Assembly (NCBI GenBank): GCA_938020525.1
Contig: CALIHW010000158.1
Coordinates: 1 to 44,224, forward strand
Reading direction: 5' to 3'
Length of the DNA: 44,224 bases
Source: an uncultured Granulosicoccaceae bacterium
GTDB lineage: Bacteria; Pseudomonadota; Gammaproteobacteria; Granulosicoccales; Granulosicoccaceae
Shown: positions 9,662-31,122 of the stretch, piece by piece
Numbering within the stretch: the first letter of the stretch is position 1
How the letters are laid out: every line of letters begins with the position of its first letter
Notes under the pieces: generated by a model
The model's input: the letters and a program-made list of their open reading frames with translations, nothing else
Database searches by the model: none
Told to the model about the DNA's origin: nothing
Program-made: the position numbers and the translations under genes

Positions 9662-10005
9662 ATTTACATTGTTTGTTGCGCCAGCAGATTAAAACAAGCT
9701 TTTTAACAATCTACCCTACTCGAAACAGAAAATTACTTTTACCGTAAAAAGACATCGAGCCTCGGTCAGATGGAAGATCAAGGTGTAAAAAATAGCACCC
9801 GGCTCACAGAACGCAGTGCTAAAAAGCCCTGCAGTAATACATCGACCCTCTTCGGATAACTAGCTGGCCCATATAGTGCACATACCCCCCGTGGACCGTC
9901 CAACCTTTACTGAAACAGGTCCCTTAATAAAAGTGCATGAAGGCCGCTGGTAAGTAGATACAGGCACAGAGCCGCTGGTTGATGTCAATAATTAGACAGT
10001 AATTT
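9662..10005. other. Divergent intergenic region, thioesterase / FtsZ-like gene
   Basis: This 344-base non-coding gap must hold the divergent promoters for the thioesterase and the ftsZ-like gene. I see no repeat module, strong hairpin or small ORF. The bases just before the ftsZ-like start (ACAGTAATTT) contain no Shine-Dalgarno match, so its translation start is unusual or weak. Confidence 0.5.
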
Positions 10006-11826
10006 ATGGATTCTCACAATTCGCCAAATCCAGAGTCTGATCGGACACAATCAGCTGTAATAAAAGTGTTCGGTGTAGGTGGTGGTGGCTGTAACGCAAT
10101 TGAGCAGATGATCGCCAGCGATATCCGTGACGTTGAATACAAGTGCGTCAACACAGATACCCAGGCACTTCGCCGATTCGCCCCTGAAAACGTTATCGAG
10201 CTCGGAAACAACCTGACCAAAGGTCTCGGTGCTGGCTCCAATCCGGACGTTGGCAGTGCGGCAGCCAAAGAAAGTACAGCAGAAATCGAAGCCGCGATTG
10301 GTGACGCCGATATGTTATTTCTGGCCGCCGGCATGGGTGGTGGCACCGGCACCGGCGCGATGCCACTGATAGCCAGCATTGCTCGCGAGATGGGCGTGCT
10401 TACTGTCGCAGTAGTCACTGAACCTTTTGCATTCGAAGGTGAGAGAAGAAGAGCTGCCGCTGCAGCAGGGCTTGACGCCCTGCGCGAATGCGCAGACTCA
10501 ATGATCGTTGTACCAAACGAAAATCTGTTGAACTACCTCGGCCCAGACGTCACTCTGGTTGATGCATTTGCCGCTGCGAATGATGTCGTTACCAAAGCGG
10601 TCCAAAGCATTGCGGAGCTCATCACCACAAGCGGCCTGATCAATGTCGATTTTGCCGACGTCAAAACAGTGATGGCAGAGATGGGTCATGCGATCATGAG
10701 TACCGGCACCGGTATGGGTGAACACCGCGCAGAAGAATCGGCCCTTGCAGCAATCAAAAGCCCTCTACTTACCAATATTGATCTAAAAGCCGCCAAAGGT
10801 ATTCTGGTCAACATTACTTCAAGCTCTGATCTCTCAATGGGTGAGTTTCAAACTGTCGGTGACATTATCCGCCAGATCACCGCAGATGATGCAACCGTAG
10901 TTATAGGTACCGTATTTGATGACAACTTCGGCCACGAGATGAAAGTTACGGTCGTTGCAACGGGATTGAACCCACCCGTTAACCAATTAGTCGAAAGAAA
11001 AAATGATGATATAGCTGCCAAGCTGGCTCAACCTACCCCGACAGCCAAAGAAAGGGCTGAAGCTGAAGCGCAAGCCGCTAAAGAGCGCGCTGCAAATCAG
11101 ACCCGTAACGAAGCGATGGCAGAAGCTGTTGCCGTGGAACACGAGCGCACACAACGAGCTGCAAGCCTGGCCAGGGCTCGACCAACAGCAGATATTGATG
11201 CTACTCAAAAACTCGAACATCCACAGCATGTTCAGGCAGCACCAGGACACGCTACCCCGCCCCCACTGCCTCGGCAATCGCCTCGGCAATCGCCACAAAA
11301 AGCTAGTGCCAGAACCGTTTCAGGCCCTGATGTATACGTCAGTGATGTCTGCATGATATGCGGTGTTACAAACGGCAGGCACCTCGCAAAATGTCCATGG
11401 CAAAACGGCCCGACACTTGATCAAAAACAAGAGTTGGCTGAAGCTCAGGCCAAAGCTAAAGCTGACGCCGAAGAAAGCGCGCAAACCGAAGCGAAGACAG
11501 GAGTTGCGCCTCTTAAAATAATCGAAGAGTTACAAAAGGTTAGAACGACAGCTAAAAAGCCACGTAAGAAGAAAAGCAACAACCTCGCAGTCGCCGCAGG
11601 GTTAATCGCAGTGGTATCCATTGCCTGGCTTATATTAGGCAACAACAAAGGTAAGCAAGACGACAGCACTATTGTTGAAAACGCGCCTGTGGAAAAAGTG
11701 CAGAAGCGCACCACGCGCATCAGCAGCGATCTTCGCCCAGGCGTACCGTACAATATTCCAACACTGACACTGGACCCTATAAAAGAAGATTCAGATACTG
11801 AGCTCACAGAGTTTTCAGACGAATAA
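10006..11826 (+). CDS. ftsZ: FtsZ-family GTPase with CCHC-type Cys/His motif and C-terminal transmembrane segment
   Basis: A 606-residue protein whose first ~325 residues are a full FtsZ: GVGGGGCNAIE (23-33), the tubulin signature GGGTGTG (111-117), PFAFEGERRR (140-149) and the synergy (T7) loop NVDFADV (213-219) with its catalytic aspartates. GTP binding and polymer-coupled hydrolysis should be intact. The remaining ~280 residues are not like ordinary FtsZ (about 390 aa in total). They comprise an Ala/Glu/Arg-rich probable coiled coil (about 344-390), a Pro/Gln linker, a C-x2-C-x6-H-x3-C cluster (C449, C452, H459, C463), a second charged helix (about 472-515), a basic patch KKPRKKK (517-523), one hydrophobic segment (about 527-545) and an acidic tail of about 60 residues. 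The positive charges predict N-terminus in, tail in the periplasm. It is not in a division-and-cell-wall cluster: the neighbours are a thioesterase and an MscS channel. It could be an extra FtsZ or the only one. Confidence 0.9.
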   Translation: MDSHNSPNPESDRTQSAVIKVFGVGGGGCNAIEQMIASDIRDVEYKCVNTDTQALRRFAPENVIELGNNLTKGLGAGSNPDVGSAAAKESTAEIEAAIGDADMLFLAAGMGGGTGTGAMPLIASIAREMGVLTVAVVTEPFAFEGERRRAAAAAGLDALRECADSMIVVPNENLLNYLGPDVTLVDAFAAANDVVTKAVQSIAELITTSGLINVDFADVKTVMAEMGHAIMSTGTGMGEHRAEESALAAIKSPLLTNIDLKAAKGILVNITSSSDLSMGEFQTVGDIIRQITADDATVVIGTVFDDNFGHEMKVTVVATGLNPPVNQLVERKNDDIAAKLAQPTPTAKERAEAEAQAAKERAANQTRNEAMAEAVAVEHERTQRAASLARARPTADIDATQKLEHPQHVQAAPGHATPPPLPRQSPRQSPQKASARTVSGPDVYVSDVCMICGVTNGRHLAKCPWQNGPTLDQKQELAEAQAKAKADAEESAQTEAKTGVAPLKIIEELQKVRTTAKKPRKKKSNNLAVAAGLIAVVSIAWLILGNNKGKQDDSTIVENAPVEKVQKRTTRISSDLRPGVPYNIPTLTLDPIKEDSDTELTEFSDE

Positions 11827-22815: not shown

Positions 22816-24627
22816 CTATCCGTTATGATGAACCTCCTTCAAGTTATAGACTTTTGTATCAACTCCCTCCATTCGAGCCTTGAGCTGCAACGCAAGATAC
22901 AATGAATAGTGTCGTGACTGATGAAGATTGCCACCGTGAAACCACAATGCCTCCTGCTGAGTAGGCTTCCACATATTACGCAACTCACCTTCCCACGGGC
23001 CTGGATCTTTCTTTGTATCTGATCCTAACCCCCAACACTTACCCACCTTATCTGCCACTTCCTGAGAGATCAGCTTCGCAGCCCAGCCATTCATTGAACC
23101 GTAGCCTGTTGCACAAACTATTAGGTCTGCGGGTAGTTCACTACCATCATCAAGACTTATCGAATTGGCATTAATACCAGTAACATTGACTCCACTTTTT
23201 ATTTTGATTTTCCCATCTATAATCAACTGGGACGCACCCACGTCAATGTAATAACCCGACCCTCTGCGAAGATACTTCATAAAAAGTCCGGACCCGTCCT
23301 CTCCGAAATCGAGCATAAAGCCTGCCTTCTCGAGCCCTTTGTACATATCGGCATCGCGCTTTGCCATTTCATCGTAAACAGGGATTTGCAGTGTATGCAG
23401 TATCTTGTAAGGCAGTGATGCAAAGATAAGATCCGCCATATCAGTGGTAACACCATTGGCTACTGCCTCACGTGAATACAATCCACCTAACGCCAGCTCC
23501 ATCAACGTATCCGATTTGGCAATATGCGTTGAAGAACGCTGCAGCATAGTGACATCAGCACCGCTTTCCCAGAGATCTGCAGAAATATCGTGTGCAGAGT
23601 TATTGGAACCGATTACGACACATTTTTTACCAGTCCAGTCCTCACCGCCCTTATGTTGACTGGAATGGCACAGAGTTCCTTTAAAGTCATTCATACCTGG
23701 GATGTCAGGCATATTAGGAACTCCAGACATCCCTGTTGCAAGCACTACTTGCTGTGGCTTCAGCACCAGTTCTTCACCGTTGCGGTTAACTGTCACCGTC
23801 CATTCTTTTTTCGCATCGTCATAACTGGCACTCAGTGCTTCGCTGTTTGTCCAGTAGTTAAGCTCCATAACCTTGGTATACATCTCAAGCCAGTCACCGA
23901 TTTTATCTTTTGGTGAAAACACCGGCCAGTGATCCGGAAATGGCAGATAGGGAAGATGGTCATACCAGACAGGATCATGAAGGCACAGGGATTTATAACG
24001 TTTGCGCCATGAGTCACCGGGTTTTTCGTTCTTTTCAAGAATAATGGTTGGCACACCAAGTCTCTTCAAGCGTGCTCCTAGACCAATACCACCCTGACCA
24101 CCACCAATCACAAGACAATACGGCTGACGGCTTATACCAAGCTCGGCTTCCTCCTGCTGCCTGCGTTCGATCCAGTTTTTACGATCTTTAAATGCACCAT
24201 GCTCAACACCCATCTCACGGGTACCATGCTGATCATTTTTCTCCTCATACCCCTTCAATTCCAACATGGTGGTGAGTAACGTCCAGCACTTGTCACCCTT
24301 TAAACGAACGTGTCCGCGCCCGCGCGCGACTTCTGTCTCAAAGGTTAACCAGCCTTCAGTAATACCGTCTGCAGAAGTGCCATCTCCCTCCAGTTGCCAG
24401 TTCAACGGTTTGGTATGACCTAAGGTGCTATCGAGCATCTTGCGAATACTGTCCGGCCCTTCCGCGGTATCAAGATTCCAGGTAAACGTAAGGAAGTCCC
24501 GCCAGTAGCAGTCTTCATCAAATAAATTCAGTACGGCGTCGATATCAGAACCGGAAAGTGCATTGTCAAAAGCGCTGATCCACACTTCCAGTTGCTTGTT
24601 CACCAGATTTTCGGCTGGAACGGCCAT
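22816..24627 (-). CDS. Flavin-containing monooxygenase with N-terminal NTF2/SnoaL-like domain
   Basis: A 603-residue two-domain protein. Residues about 8-130 form an NTF2/SnoaL-like fold (VWISAFDNALSGSDIDAVLNL... DCYWRDFLTF). Residues about 168-590 form a class B flavoprotein monooxygenase with the FAD motif GGGQGGIG (175-182), the FMO fingerprint FKGTLCHSSQHKGG (315-328) and the NADPH motif VIGSNNSAHDIS (338-349). It would oxygenate a soft nucleophile or ketone using NADPH and O2 in the cytoplasm. ATG at 24627 follows CAGGAGGAGAAAC; the upstream extension to 24669 is ignored. This fused layout is known for putative bacterial FMOs of the YUCCA-like group. Substrate unknown. Confidence 0.9.
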   Translation of the reverse strand: MAVPAENLVNKQLEVWISAFDNALSGSDIDAVLNLFDEDCYWRDFLTFTWNLDTAEGPDSIRKMLDSTLGHTKPLNWQLEGDGTSADGITEGWLTFETEVARGRGHVRLKGDKCWTLLTTMLELKGYEEKNDQHGTREMGVEHGAFKDRKNWIERRQQEEAELGISRQPYCLVIGGGQGGIGLGARLKRLGVPTIILEKNEKPGDSWRKRYKSLCLHDPVWYDHLPYLPFPDHWPVFSPKDKIGDWLEMYTKVMELNYWTNSEALSASYDDAKKEWTVTVNRNGEELVLKPQQVVLATGMSGVPNMPDIPGMNDFKGTLCHSSQHKGGEDWTGKKCVVIGSNNSAHDISADLWESGADVTMLQRSSTHIAKSDTLMELALGGLYSREAVANGVTTDMADLIFASLPYKILHTLQIPVYDEMAKRDADMYKGLEKAGFMLDFGEDGSGLFMKYLRRGSGYYIDVGASQLIIDGKIKIKSGVNVTGINANSISLDDGSELPADLIVCATGYGSMNGWAAKLISQEVADKVGKCWGLGSDTKKDPGPWEGELRNMWKPTQQEALWFHGGNLHQSRHYSLYLALQLKARMEGVDTKVYNLKEVHHNG

Positions 24628-24766
24628 GTTTCTCCTCCTGATTGTTGTCGCACTTTGACGATAACACAATCAATCCCACGATCAAATATGCGGCACATCG
24701 CTAACGCCATAGCCACCTCGACCACTCCACTACAGCAATGGTACAGCAATCTTTCCAGGACTCTCG

Positions 24767-25851: not shown

Positions 25852-27738
25852 ATGAAAAACCTGGATGACATTTCGTTTGACGAGCACGACGAGCTTATCA
25901 ATCCCAGACCTGAAGAAACAGATTTTGATCGCATCATGAACAGGGCGCTTTCGCGCCGTGATTTAATGAAAGGCGTGATGGTTTTCGGCGGCGTTGCCGC
26001 ACTCGGCAATACGCTTATGCCCGCCATTACGCAGGCAGCCCCGCACCGTTTCGCGTTTGACGGCATAGATGCAAGCACAACTGACGATATTTCTCTTCCG
26101 CCGGGTTACAGCGCCCAGGTGGTGGTACGTTGGGGTGATCCGCTTTGGTCAGACGCTGAAGAATTCGACCATGCAACACGCGGAACCGGAGCCAGTCAGG
26201 CGAAATCATTCGGTGACAATAACGACGGCATGGAAGTCTATGCACACGGCGATAAAACCATACTGATTGCCAACAATGAATACACCAACAAAGGCATCAT
26301 TTGGGGTAATCGTGAGGACGGTAAGGCAGAAAACGATGACGATATTCTCAAGGGTATGAATGCCCATGGCCTGACTGCCGCAGAAATCGAACAAAAAGAC
26401 GGACAATGGTCCGTTGTTAAAGACAGCCCGTACAATCGTCGCTTTACTCCTGATGTTGAAATGGACATTACCGGCCCTGCTGCAGGTCACGACCTGATGA
26501 AAACAAAAAGAGACCCGGATGGCGTGGTGGCGCAAGGTACCTTCAATAACTGCGGTAACGGCTCAACACCGTGGGGCACTTATCTCGCTTGTGAAGAAAA
26601 TTTCAACGGCTACTTTGCCGCTGAAGATCAAGAGATGGAAGTGACAGCAGAAATGAAAAGATACGGCGTATCACCCAAAGGCCGTGGCTACGGCTGGGAG
26701 AAAATCGATGACCGTTTTGATCTTGCAAAAGAATCCAACGAGTGCAATCGCCATGGCTATGTCACCGAAGTAGATGCAAGAGATCCGACCAGCCGCCCCA
26801 AAAAGCGATCCGCATTAGGCCGCTTCAAGCATGAAAACGCAGAAGTCGTGGTGAACGGTGACGGTCACATCGTCGTGTACATGGGTGATGATGAACGCGG
26901 CGAGTTCCTCTATCGATACATTTCAGATGGTGTCTATGCTCCGGGTGCTGAAACTGATTCACTACTTGAAGAAGGTAAACTATATGCCGCCAGATTTAAT
27001 GATGATGGGTCCGGTGAATGGCTGGCGCTGACTCCGGAAGCCACCGGCATGGCAAACATGGCTGAGATTTGCATACATACTCGTATTGCGGCGTCGGCTG
27101 TTGGTGCCACTACCATGGATCGCCCTGAATGGGTCAGCGCCAACCCGAAAGCTGCAGAAGTATATTGTTGCCTGACTAACAATAAAAACCGCGGTGTAAA
27201 ACCAAACGCTGGTGGAGATGAAACACCGGTTGGCGGCCCTAACCCACGTGAAGCTAACCCTTACGGCCAGATTGTTCGCTGGCGCCCGGCCTCAGCCGAT
27301 CACACAAGCGATGCATTCGAGTGGGATCTATACGCACTGGCAGGTAATCCGAACTTACACAACGATCTCTATGGTGGCTCTGACAACATAACCAAAGACA
27401 ATATGTTCAATTCACCTGACGGACTGAGATTTGATTCCAACGGCATCCTATGGATTCAAACAGACGGCAACTACTCCAATGAGAAGAACTTTGAAGGACA
27501 AGGCAACAACCAGATGCTTGCCGGGGATCCTGCAACGGGTGAAATCCGACGCTTCCTGACTGGCCCTAAACAGGCTGAAGTAACCGGCCTTACCTGGAGC
27601 CCTGATCGCCGCACCATGTTTGTCGGCATTCAACACCCGGGCGAGCGTGGTGAAGGTAACTGGCCGGACGGCGGTGATTCTGCACCCCGCTCTGCCATCC
27701 TTGCCATTACACGTGACGATGGTGGGTTAGTCGGTTAA
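25852..27738 (+). CDS. Tat-exported PhoX-family (DUF839) phosphatase-like protein
   Basis: A 628-residue protein with an internal twin-arginine signal, S34-R35-R36-D-L-M-K, followed by a hydrophobic segment and a cut near AITQAA (about 62). The long acidic segment before the RR is typical of PhoX. The mature part is the DUF839/PhoX beta-propeller: EENFNGYF, an RFKHENAEV stretch, VYMGDDERGEFLYRY and PDGLRFDSNGILWIQTDG. PhoX enzymes are Ca/Fe-dependent periplasmic or extracellular phosphomonoesterases active under phosphate limitation, but many DUF839 proteins have no assigned activity. The ATG at 25852 has an excellent GGAGG site. Single gene; hairpin at 27772-27796 follows. Confidence 0.88.
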   Translation: MKNLDDISFDEHDELINPRPEETDFDRIMNRALSRRDLMKGVMVFGGVAALGNTLMPAITQAAPHRFAFDGIDASTTDDISLPPGYSAQVVVRWGDPLWSDAEEFDHATRGTGASQAKSFGDNNDGMEVYAHGDKTILIANNEYTNKGIIWGNREDGKAENDDDILKGMNAHGLTAAEIEQKDGQWSVVKDSPYNRRFTPDVEMDITGPAAGHDLMKTKRDPDGVVAQGTFNNCGNGSTPWGTYLACEENFNGYFAAEDQEMEVTAEMKRYGVSPKGRGYGWEKIDDRFDLAKESNECNRHGYVTEVDARDPTSRPKKRSALGRFKHENAEVVVNGDGHIVVYMGDDERGEFLYRYISDGVYAPGAETDSLLEEGKLYAARFNDDGSGEWLALTPEATGMANMAEICIHTRIAASAVGATTMDRPEWVSANPKAAEVYCCLTNNKNRGVKPNAGGDETPVGGPNPREANPYGQIVRWRPASADHTSDAFEWDLYALAGNPNLHNDLYGGSDNITKDNMFNSPDGLRFDSNGILWIQTDGNYSNEKNFEGQGNNQMLAGDPATGEIRRFLTGPKQAEVTGLTWSPDRRTMFVGIQHPGERGEGNWPDGGDSAPRSAILAITRDDGGLVG

Positions 27739-27852: not shown

Positions 27853-29799
27853 CTAAGGTAACACCCACAAGGAAGCATCTCTAATCCAGAATTCATTACG
27901 AAAATCCGGATTGTCCGCCGTGATCCATACCACCTGAGTTCCAGCTGGCACATAAGACCCCGTGTCAGATCCGGTAAAGTAGTTGCGGAATTTACTAAAG
28001 TTATTTTGTGGTTCGTATTGCAGCGATGGCGTGTGCCACGTAGCGCCTTCGTCATAGGAAACACGCATACTTGTTTCGCCATTTTCCGCACCAGTCAGTG
28101 CGGTAAACCTAAATTTCGAATTGGCCGGCGCAGGCTCTGCGAATTGCACAATCATTGGCACAGCTTCATTAGCATCTGTAGACTGCGTTCGCTTAAGAGC
28201 CTTTATTATCTGGAATGGTTTACCTGGTGACAGGTAGAAATTGTCCCAATGATAAGTATTTGGATGACAGAGACTTTGAAAAGCTGCACCTGGTTTATCG
28301 TGTGGTTGGTTAACATTAGTACACGATTTGGTGGTGTTATAAGCATAATGGGTGAACTGCACTACCAGTTCGCTATAAAGCTCTGGAACGATATACTCCC
28401 CGACACAACCATTACCGTAGTCAGGCATACACAGTGAGACTTGATCCCATAGTTCAGCAGCCCAGAGACTATTTTCAGGTGTCTTTTTTATTGTTAATCT
28501 GAATCGGGCCCGGGTTCGGTTGTCTGTGATGTTATGCGGTGTGATATCCGGATCGTTCTCTCCATCAAGATAGTCATACATCACCTCGTTATAACTGCGG
28601 TGAGTCAACACCCAGTCCTCGCCCAACGGTGCACTGGCATAGACTACAAGTCTTTCAGGATTGCCAGGGTTAGCTATCTGTGCACGCGTGTATTCCGCAG
28701 CGTTGTCATCGGGCTGTATGTAGTTGCCATCGATCAAAAACCTGTTGTCTTTCATAAAAAGAGTTCGGAAGGCATTTATTTTACCGAGAATATCTGCGAT
28801 GCCGTTCGGGCCTTCATCAAGCGCGGTATTTATATTGAACCCGTTAACCGCTTTACCATTGGCATCGGCAACAACATCGCCCTCGGGCAATTGCAAGTGG
28901 GTTTCGAGTGGCGTCAGATCCAGTTGCCAGTAATCCCGTCCTGCCGTTCGGTAAGTAGATACTGAAAATTCAACAGTGCCAGTGCCGGATGAGGTATCTA
29001 AAAGCTGATTAGGGGTCAGGGTAAGCTTGGAAGCGCCGCCCGCATAGGCGGCAGTCATCAAGTGGTCAGCGCAAACGTATATCATATCTTCATAACGAAG
29101 CACCGGATGCAATCCGATAGCATCGGAAGTCTCTTCTTCGAACTCCGGCGCCCAGTAGTCAGACAAGGTATTCTCATCACCATTGTAGCTATCAGGAATT
29201 GAGAAAAATTCCTGCATAAAGGTAAACCCGCGCTGATTGTTTCGCGATGAGTCCACACGTTGTGAAAGATCGATTGGCGAACCACAGCGATCGCCATGAT
29301 CAGCCATCAGGAACTGTTCGTTCCAAAAGTAGCTGTCGTCAGAACCAGATCCGCTACCGGGTCGAATGTATCCATCTCTGGAGTGAGCTGTGATATCCCA
29401 CTTTTTAGAGACAGCTTCAAGCTGCAAAGCGTGCTGGCTAAAATCCATTCCATCCACCTGATCAGTGTGCAGATTAAACACGTTATGTTCCTGTGTCTGT
29501 TCCTCAGGGTCATCAAGGTTAAACAATTCTCCCCGGGTATACTCCCGGTAAGTTTGATCTCGAAAAGACATTGGCGGGATAAAACCTGCCAGCAAAGATG
29601 GACTGGTATCCGTGAAGTCCTCACAAAAATAGGAATCAGTTAGCGCTAAATACTGCGAGCAGTAACTGTCGGTGGAATCTACCAATGCACCACTGCCAGA
29701 TATCGAGTCACCGCTGGGTGATACTGCATCGTCTGCGTTTCCGCACCCTGACAGAGGAAAATAAATCATTCCGGCAATAACCAGCGGTAATATTCGCAT
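27853..29799 (-). CDS. Large lipoprotein of unknown function
   Basis: A 648-residue protein with a type II signal peptide: MRILPLVIAGMIYFPLSGC, lipobox LSGC, lipidated Cys19. Asp does not follow the Cys directly (CGNADD), so outer-membrane sorting is likely. The mature protein is rich in Asp, Tyr, Asn and aromatic residues and reads as mostly beta-strand, with no repeat structure. Several paired cysteines (for example in CMPDYGNGC and KSCTNV...SLCHPN) suggest disulfides. The C-terminal ~110 residues, with VSYDEGATWHTPS and FWIRDASLWVLP, look like a beta-sandwich. I do not recognise a family. The upstream frame to 29847 is ignored in favour of the signal peptide. Divergent from the triple-RidA gene with 108 bases between starts. 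Confidence 0.75.
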   Translation of the reverse strand: MRILPLVIAGMIYFPLSGCGNADDAVSPSGDSISGSGALVDSTDSYCSQYLALTDSYFCEDFTDTSPSLLAGFIPPMSFRDQTYREYTRGELFNLDDPEEQTQEHNVFNLHTDQVDGMDFSQHALQLEAVSKKWDITAHSRDGYIRPGSGSGSDDSYFWNEQFLMADHGDRCGSPIDLSQRVDSSRNNQRGFTFMQEFFSIPDSYNGDENTLSDYWAPEFEEETSDAIGLHPVLRYEDMIYVCADHLMTAAYAGGASKLTLTPNQLLDTSSGTGTVEFSVSTYRTAGRDYWQLDLTPLETHLQLPEGDVVADANGKAVNGFNINTALDEGPNGIADILGKINAFRTLFMKDNRFLIDGNYIQPDDNAAEYTRAQIANPGNPERLVVYASAPLGEDWVLTHRSYNEVMYDYLDGENDPDITPHNITDNRTRARFRLTIKKTPENSLWAAELWDQVSLCMPDYGNGCVGEYIVPELYSELVVQFTHYAYNTTKSCTNVNQPHDKPGAAFQSLCHPNTYHWDNFYLSPGKPFQIIKALKRTQSTDANEAVPMIVQFAEPAPANSKFRFTALTGAENGETSMRVSYDEGATWHTPSLQYEPQNNFSKFRNYFTGSDTGSYVPAGTQVVWITADNPDFRNEFWIRDASLWVLP

Positions 29800-29907
29800 T
29801 GTCCTGCACCCCGCGATCCTGTGGCGTTCTCTTACACTATAGTGCAACTACTGATACTGTATGCAAAGCAAAAGGTAGCAAAGGCGAACCACGTTGGAAA
29901 CCGTAAA

Positions 29908-31122
29908 ATGAAACACCACAGCTGGCCAGAGAACCATTGGCACTGGCCCGTAGAGCTAAACCACCAGCATGGTGTCAGGTGTGGGGATCTGATATTCACC
30001 GGCGGCCAGGCAGATCTGAATCAAACGGGTGAAGTGGTTAACTCCGATGCCCTTGATCTTCAGAGTGCTAATGTCATTCGCTTTGTGGAAAATATCCTTC
30101 TTGATCTTGATGCATCACTTGCCAATATAGTCAGATGGGTCGCGTATTTTGTTGGTGATGAAAAAGACGAAGCACATATTCTTTCCCTACTTGATAAAGC
30201 CACTCCAGATACCTGCAAACCGACAGTAACAACAATCTGTTTACCTGCACTGTGTTATCCGGGTATGCGAATCGAACTCGAAGCTGTCGCTTTTTGCCCG
30301 GAAGATATCTCCTCACAAAAAATGCAATATGCCCGTGGTGACAATTTACCCGCACTGCCAGACGGTTTTTCGCATGCTGTTAGATGTGGCGATTTGGTGT
30401 TTACCAGCGATTGTTCTGCGATCTCCCCTCAAGGAGATGTACAAATGCCTGATGACCTGACTGCACAAACCACGCTTATGATGAATTGTCTTGGCAACAC
30501 ACTGGCATTGGTTGATGCATCAATAGATGATGTATTGAAGCTGAATGTATTCTATTTGGGTGATGGCACAGCCGCTAACTGGAGTGAGCCTGCGCTGATT
30601 CGTGCATCACATTTTAAAGACCCGGGGCCTGCCGCTACAGGAATCTCTGTACAAGGCTTTGCCATACCCGGCCTGATGACAAAAATCGCGGTCACTGCAG
30701 GTGCAGGGGTTAGCAAAAAGCCTCGAGACTACTCATGGCCTGAGAACCATTGGGACTGGACCGAAAAGCTACCATACAAACATGGAAATCGCTTTGGCAA
30801 TATCATACATCTTGGTGGACAGGTTGCACTTGATCAAAACGCTGAAGTACTTCATCCGGACAATATGGTAGAGCAAACCCGTATTGCTATGCACAACATA
30901 AAATTGGTGTTGGCTGAGTTTGGTGCAACGCTGGATGAGGTAGTAAAGGTAACAACTTTTTATCAAGGGAGTGCGTCAGCCGAAGCACTACACAAAAACC
31001 TGCTGATTCGATCAGGCTCTTACAACAAACCAGGGCCTGCAACATCGGGAATACCAGTGACCAGTCTCGTCTATGAGTCTATGGTTATCGAGATCGAAGT
31101 GATAGCTATCATAGACAACTGA
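29908..31122 (+). CDS. Triple RidA-domain protein (three fused YjgF/YER057c/UK114 domains)
   Basis: A 404-residue protein built of three tandem RidA-like domains: about 1-130, 145-265 and 274-404. Domains 1 and 3 both begin with SWPENHW.W and share HG.R.G..I...GGQ..L.Q..EV; domain 2 has HAVRCGDLVFTSD and GDVQMPDDLTAQT. Each ends in a strand like M.IE.EV.A. Ordinary RidA is about 130 residues and forms a homotrimer with active sites at subunit contacts, so this is plausibly a single-chain trimer. The catalytic Arg of RidA (R105 in E. coli) is Val, Ala and Thr in domains 1-3 by my alignment, so it is unlikely to be a standard enamine deaminase. ATG at 29908 is chosen; the frame is open upstream from GTG at 29821. 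Confidence 0.85.
   Translation: MKHHSWPENHWHWPVELNHQHGVRCGDLIFTGGQADLNQTGEVVNSDALDLQSANVIRFVENILLDLDASLANIVRWVAYFVGDEKDEAHILSLLDKATPDTCKPTVTTICLPALCYPGMRIELEAVAFCPEDISSQKMQYARGDNLPALPDGFSHAVRCGDLVFTSDCSAISPQGDVQMPDDLTAQTTLMMNCLGNTLALVDASIDDVLKLNVFYLGDGTAANWSEPALIRASHFKDPGPAATGISVQGFAIPGLMTKIAVTAGAGVSKKPRDYSWPENHWDWTEKLPYKHGNRFGNIIHLGGQVALDQNAEVLHPDNMVEQTRIAMHNIKLVLAEFGATLDEVVKVTTFYQGSASAEALHKNLLIRSGSYNKPGPATSGIPVTSLVYESMVIEIEVIAIIDN

Follow-up and report, generated by a model that had tools for sequence, protein, structure and literature searches.

In the FtsZ proteins studied so far, contact with the membrane is made by an adaptor or, rarely, by a peripheral sequence, as presented in the available text of PMC12583498. 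An ftsZ gene from an uncultured Granulosicoccaceae bacterium raises the question of whether an FtsZ could be built into the membrane by its own C-terminal tail, as a sequence-only reading of this locus had proposed. The gene lies in a stretch of 44,224 nucleotides (hereafter the window), which is an entire contig of a 4.53-Mb genome that is 93% complete. Its product, a long FtsZ paralog, is named FtsZ-TM here, and the canonical copy is named FtsZ1. A second FtsZ with a membrane-built tail would suggest that division filaments can be anchored without the usual helpers.

The ftsZ-TM gene (10006..11826, on the forward strand, as are all its features given below) is a single intact ORF that starts with ATG and encodes 606 aa. 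Residues 1-322 (10006..10971) form the FtsZ GTPase core, which was matched by TIGR00065 at 378.3 bits (curated cut-off 295.2) and by PF00091 and PF12327 with E-values of 1e-42 and 7.5e-28, both above the gathering score. The two FtsZ motifs were found exactly where the sequence-only reading had placed them, with the GGGTGTG signature (T4) at residues 111-117 (10336..10356) and the T7 catalytic loop NVDFADV, which fits NxDxxD, at residues 213-219 (10642..10662). Both are invariant in an alignment of 11 FtsZ-TM sequences that omits the G007 copy, split over two contigs, and the T7 loop has the same residues in FtsZ1 of the same genome. By domain content, FtsZ-TM is an FtsZ.

Downstream of the core, a fast-evolving linker that is rich in Ala, Glu, Arg and Pro and differs in length among copies (residues 323-448, 10972..11349) leads to a C-x2-C-x6-H-x3-C cluster formed by C449, C452, H459 and C463 (residues 449-463, 11350..11394), which might bind zinc and is predicted to face the cytoplasm. 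A basic patch with seven K/R among its 15 residues (residues 512-526, 11539..11583), a predicted transmembrane segment (residues 527-545, 11584..11640) and a 61-residue tail (residues 546-606, 11641..11823) complete the protein; the positive-inside flank would place the tail in the periplasm. With a mean Kyte-Doolittle hydropathy of 2.52, the segment is the most hydrophobic 19-residue stretch of the entire protein. The cluster, the basic patch and the single hydrophobic segment were thus all present as the sequence-only reading had described them, the last two by K/R count and hydropathy. No Pfam family matched the 284 residues beyond the core at E up to 1, and nothing else similar to residues 433-606 was found in the same genome at E up to 10. 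Across the 11 FtsZ-TM sequences, no third Pfam family was matched by more than one member, the best being Caldesmon (E 0.0017, one member). A match of residues 339-522 to an NCBIfam DNA polymerase III model (E 0.53) was weak, far under the cut-off, and was disregarded.

The canonical ftsZ that the sequence-only reading had suggested looking for was found on another contig of the same genome, beside ftsA. It encodes 427 aa from its ATG and ends in DLPTFLRKQAD, and the locus order reads ftsA-ftsZ-lpxC, with FtsA also assigned by PF02491 and lpxC by reading. FtsZ-TM, which lacks the C-terminal peptide and does not adjoin ftsA or lpxC, was accordingly rejected as the canonical divisome FtsZ. The idea that it lies outside any division cluster was borne out, since, by reading, the genes around it in the window are gdh and those for a thioesterase and an MscS-like protein, the last scoring 20.1 bits against Pfam MS_channel_2nd, slightly below the cut-off of 20.2.

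To define the distribution of FtsZ-TM, 48 genomes of the family were compared. Within the window's genus, 12 of the 14 genomes had it, compared with none of the 34 others, one of which (G021) gave no FtsZ match whatever. The two genus genomes in which it was not found, G002 (86% complete) and G012 (92%), reflect either loss or an assembly gap, and on their account FtsZ-TM may be dispensable. G001 (80% complete) and G007 (77%) carried FtsZ-TM, and canonical FtsZ and FtsA were not found in them; FtsA was present in the other 12 of the 14 genomes. ZipA was present in 13 of the 14, G004 being the one in which it was not found. Given this retention of FtsA and ZipA, a replacement of either by FtsZ-TM was rejected. 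In a scan of 276 class genomes (second matches of G230 and G263 set aside) and 150 phylum genomes, none but the window's own gene passed model position 459/567 among the matches listed. In three class genomes (G169, G267 and G175), long open frames were traced to canonical FtsZ preceded by open sequence. Relatives of the gene occurred in nine named records, eight from uncultured Granulosicoccaceae MAGs and one from a Chromatiales MAG; NCBI taxonomy places the family in Chromatiales, Gammaproteobacteria.

Two further observations were made during this survey. MinC_C scored above its cut-off in 8 of the 14 genus genomes, the window's own not being one of them, and showed no clear tie to FtsZ-TM; this patchiness may be real for the Min system or stem from gaps in the assemblies. 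G035, from another genus of the family, has a second FtsZ of 367 aa (L044, 3237-4340) ending in DIPVFLRHTKNAG, which was rejected as an FtsZ-TM, because it has the C-terminal peptide and groups with the canonical copies.

All 11 full-length FtsZ-TM copies contained the hydrophobic segment, with mean hydropathy from 1.56 (G005, the weakest) to 2.52. K/R residues were in excess in the 15 residues before the segment relative to the 15 after it in 10 of the 11, G005 being a tie. Judged from hydropathy and charge, FtsZ-TM is therefore predicted to be a single-pass protein, its one hydrophobic segment being about 19 residues long and flanked by positive charge on the inside. In a strict tail-anchored protein, about 30 residues or fewer follow the segment. 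FtsZ-TM of the window, with 61, was rejected as one; the range among full-length copies is 30 to 121. In the split G007 copy, the tail piece has both segment and cluster by eye. The C-terminal part is thus retained in the relatives, and topology, as far as hydropathy and charge can tell, speaks for rather than against residues 527-545 as an anchor. At the level of sequence, the proposed self-tethering was upheld.

The peptide that binds FtsA and ZipA, [DE][ILV]PxFLR, was found in none of the 11 full-length FtsZ-TM copies, and inspection of the G007 tail piece by eye revealed none either. Of 29 canonical copies, 28 had it; the remaining one, from G002, is truncated where its contig ends. These canonical tails, from the family and one outgroup, reached a hydropathy of at most 0.54, under all 11 FtsZ-TM. 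A comparison set of 20 FtsZs of other Pseudomonadota was also assembled, chosen for long open frames rather than at random and drawn in 19 of the 20 cases from outside the class, with tails of 91 (G278) to 314 residues. Their tail hydropathy peaked at 1.27, again under all 11 FtsZ-TM; they had no tail cysteines, and [IV]PxFL stood near the end in 20 of 20. These long-linker proteins are presumably of the alphaproteobacterial type. The membrane segment and the absent C-terminal peptide ruled out FtsZ-TM as a protein of that kind.

The cluster was less uniform than the segment. Its exact spacing was present in 9 of the 11 full-length copies, whereas G011 had no cluster and G013 only CxxC, so that the cluster would be dispensable for the tether itself. 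Kept ligands with fixed spacing, as in a Cys3His site of the zinc type, thus characterize those nine and G007, and not G011 or G013. One weak zinc-finger match was obtained from Pfam (zf-P11, E 0.065, in 1 of 11). The cluster is possibly a zinc or redox site, on the predicted cytoplasmic side. The putative coiled coil of the sequence-only reading, an Ala/Glu/Arg-rich stretch, had a counterpart in G003 and G005 only, as judged from the alignment. The tail had been described as acidic, which fits the window's protein (net charge -5) and does not hold as a general trait, since the 11 copies range from -11 to +2. YNIPTLTLD (residues 582-590, 11749..11775), which had been likened to the FtsZ C-terminal peptide, is present on the predicted periplasmic side as described. 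Its counterparts were confined to G003 and G005, with Y[NT]IPTL in the tails of G000, G003 and G005 alone, and the resemblance may be due to chance.

A phylogenetic tree of 41 rows, built with 15 of the 34 family genomes from outside the genus and one class outgroup, showed that FtsZ-TM forms one clade with support of 100/100. G011 and G013 were the earliest branch inside this clade; therefore, the cluster was either gained after their split or lost in them. In the 10 genomes with both paralogs, mean pairwise core identity was 73.5% for FtsZ-TM vs 90.7% for FtsZ1. Within the same genome, the nucleotide loops, T7 and the start of H8, with limits set from motifs by the analyst, shared 81-89% identity between FtsZ1 and FtsZ-TM, compared with 49-67% for the remaining core. 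Core positions 60, 173, 201 and 232 differed consistently between the paralogs, for example by K to N at 173 (T6).

The core is under purifying selection, with dN/dS of 0.01-0.06 in six FtsZ-TM pairs, dS often being near saturation. With the ORF intact as well, a frameshift or fusion of two genes, raised as a possible refutation, was not borne out. Between G008 and G009, dN was 0.02 in the core, 0.32 in the linker, 0.11 in the cluster, 0.47 in the basic stretch, 0.08 in the membrane segment and 0.10 in the tail. The cluster had a lower dN than the linker in all four pairs having a cluster, and so did the C-terminal tail in 5 of 5 pairs. In the four pairs other than G008/G009, the membrane segment evolved with dN of 0.20-0.92 while its hydrophobicity was kept, and dN/dS in G000/G005 was 0.62 for the segment and 0.63 for the preceding basic stretch, indicating little sequence constraint. 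Such turnover with hydrophobicity kept is as expected of an anchor, but equally of weak constraint.

The genetic context analysis indicated at least five different neighbourhoods of FtsZ-TM, some on short contigs, each shared within small groups only. The order gdh, thioesterase, FtsZ-TM, MscS-like (names by reading) was common to G000, G003 and G005; the other groups were G006/G007, G004/G008/G009 with G001 in part, G011/G013, and G010 alone. Elsewhere in the window, an ORF at 29821-31122 (+) encodes a single chain with three stretches matching Ribonuc_L-PSP (RidA) (Pfam, scanned from 29908); RidA proteins usually have a single domain. The product of the ORF at 22816-24669 (-) resembles a flavin-dependent monooxygenase; its N-terminal part has a weak likeness to SnoaL that falls short of the Pfam cut-off. 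A gene for a PhoX alkaline phosphatase (25852-27738) adjoins one at 27853-29847 (-) for a protein of 664 aa that is lipoprotein-like by reading and unmatched in Pfam at E up to 0.001.

Upstream of ftsZ-TM, an element resembling a sigma-54-type (-24/-12) promoter, TGGCCCATATAGTGCA (9865..9880, +), begins 141 nt before the start codon. The available text of PMC12316311 gives the sigma-54 promoter as TGGCAC and TGC, 5-7 nt apart; TGGCCC-N6-TGCA fits this spacing, with one mismatch in the first box. The pattern TGGC-N8-TGC[AT] occurred at 102-141 nt in 11 of 12 FtsZ-TM upstream regions of 300 nt, the exception being G010, in which the GG is lost. It was present in 2 of 110 upstream regions of other ORFs (from the window and ten loci), three times in the whole window on both strands (that is, twice elsewhere), and in a mean of 0.17 and a maximum of 2 of the 12 upstream regions over 1000 shuffles. 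These statistics overstate its significance because the pattern was tested after being seen in the alignment and the copies are related. Nevertheless, the element is kept though the flanking genes differ, which favours constraint, and its sigma-54-like form suggests conditional expression. The sigma-54 gene rpoN was present in 11 of the 14 genus genomes, including the window's own; G002, G004 and G007 yielded no rpoN match, and the latter two carry the element. Furthermore, a conserved leader block directly against the start codon (9980..10005, +), reading TGTCAA...TCAGGCAGAGTCAT in relatives, could be aligned between copies in different neighbourhoods. It showed no obvious Shine-Dalgarno sequence by eye and could be a regulator site or a leader. 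A search for 9-mers common to the upstream regions gave none of use.

Taken together, we think it reasonably probable that FtsZ-TM is a genus-specific FtsZ duplicate that anchors itself, lacks the adaptor-binding peptide, mixes into FtsZ1 filaments and is perhaps made conditionally. The duplicate would have retained the whole GTPase and polymerization core and dropped the C-terminal peptide for FtsA and ZipA. The place of that peptide would be taken by a single membrane-spanning helix, reached through a variable linker and, in most copies, a small Cys3His site. With the N-terminus in the cytoplasm and a short tail in the periplasm, FtsZ-TM would most likely reside in the inner membrane. As the nucleotide loops and T7 are kept, it should bind GTP and polymerize, probably with FtsZ1, and would add a permanent tether alongside FtsA and ZipA rather than replace them. 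The cluster might bind zinc and thereby recruit a partner or mediate dimerization, and a redox role is conceivable. Production would occur under particular conditions, apart from the division operon. However, copolymerization might be harmful if a subunit fixed permanently in the membrane slowed treadmilling.

In one alternative, FtsZ-TM is a regulator or brake: produced under the control of sigma-54 and held at the membrane, it would retard or stop the turnover of the Z ring in some conditions. The sigma-54-like element and the possible metal or redox site would suit such a role, and a permanently anchored subunit may be expected to hinder subunit exchange, but the GTPase motifs are retained and we regard a brake as improbable. 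It is also conceivable, though on balance unlikely, that FtsZ-TM forms membrane-bound filaments of its own that serve something other than division, such as cell shape, internal membranes or the placement of envelope machines. Archaeal CetZ forms filaments with such a non-division job. A separate role would agree with the gene's own locus, which has its own conserved upstream element, no conserved division neighbours and at least five neighbourhoods, with the quicker evolution of its core (73.5% vs 90.7% identity) and with the four consistent paralog differences, residue 173 among them. The nucleotide and T7 loops, however, are nearer to FtsZ1 than the remaining core is, as would fit shared filaments, although catalysis alone could account for that likeness.

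Two other alternatives concern the extension itself. The hydrophobic segment might not span the membrane but form a helix that contacts other proteins or binds peripherally, given that its assignment comes from hydropathy, which falls to 1.56 in G005. That all 11 copies exceed the 20 Pseudomonadota tails (maximum 1.27) and the 29 canonical tails (maximum 0.54), and that 10 of 11 have the K/R excess on the N-terminal side, makes this quite improbable. An artefact, either a frameshift or assembly join of two genes or a duplicate in decay whose tail is random, could be read from the fast evolution of the linker, but is hard to reconcile with one architecture across separate genomes with differing neighbours, with strong purifying selection on the core, or with the lower dN of cluster and tail than of linker in every pair compared; its probability is very small. 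The self-anchored partner of FtsZ1 is thus the reading we retain. If true, it would make testable whether treadmilling and constriction can proceed with a permanent tether, and what a cell gains from one, perhaps under certain conditions only. More tentatively, and with somewhat more doubt than trust, FtsZ-TM could represent a natural FtsZ that is an integral membrane protein with a metal site and a sigma-54 switch, changing the tether or building a second skeleton on demand.

Compared with known systems, FtsZ-TM shares the whole GTPase and C-terminal domain and the motifs with canonical gammaproteobacterial FtsZ (TIGR00065), but differs in the missing C-terminal peptide, the extra cluster, membrane segment and tail, and the location outside the division operon. 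FtsZl1 and FtsZl2, described in the accessible part of PMC2875224 as the most structurally diverged superfamily members, are likewise extra proteins of the superfamily with long C-terminal additions. According to the same part of PMC2875224, the addition in FtsZl1 is a coiled coil, its context ties it to membrane remodelling, it has no detected likeness to the FtsZ C-terminal domain and it occurs in vWA operons. FtsZ-TM was rejected as an FtsZl1 (Makarova and Koonin), since PF12327 scored above cut-off and the neighbours are not vWA genes. FtsZl2 has an alpha/beta C-terminal region of ~300 aa (PMC2875224, accessible part). The extension of FtsZ-TM has a low-complexity look and a membrane segment.

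Direct membrane contact by FtsZ is known in other forms. In Odinarchaeota, OdinFtsZ1 resembles FtsZ-TM as one of two paralogs and in binding the membrane directly, while its fellow paralog uses an adaptor (PMC12583498, available text). It differs in using an N-terminal amphipathic helix, and the main text of PMC12583498 does not contain the word 'transmembrane'. The available text of PMC12583498 also cites Mycoplasma FtsZ and Arabidopsis chloroplast FtsZ1 as touching the membrane without an adaptor, through membrane-targeting sequences or an amphiphilic motif rather than a membrane-spanning segment. Within the open-licence literature, no natural FtsZ with a membrane-spanning C-terminal segment was recognized.

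FtsZm of Magnetospirillum is not known to have a membrane-anchored tail. It is, like FtsZ-TM, a second FtsZ, and by a title listed in PMC7676999 it is required under nitrate deprivation and probably interacts with the generic FtsZ. Unlike FtsZ-TM it is a magnetosome gene, and it may be a functional analogue of FtsZ-TM. In the engineered FtsZ-YFP-mts, FtsZ carries a C-terminal membrane-targeting sequence (mts), which is amphipathic. As with FtsZ-TM, FtsZ itself is attached to the membrane C-terminally, although by a short targeting sequence that does not span it, and the protein self-organizes into dynamic rings on supported membranes (PMC5979038, available text). Ring formation by such a construct implies that a self-anchored arrangement is workable. 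If the favoured reading is true, FtsZ-TM would be the natural counterpart of this engineered membrane-targeted FtsZ, kept across the genus beside FtsZ1, FtsA and ZipA.
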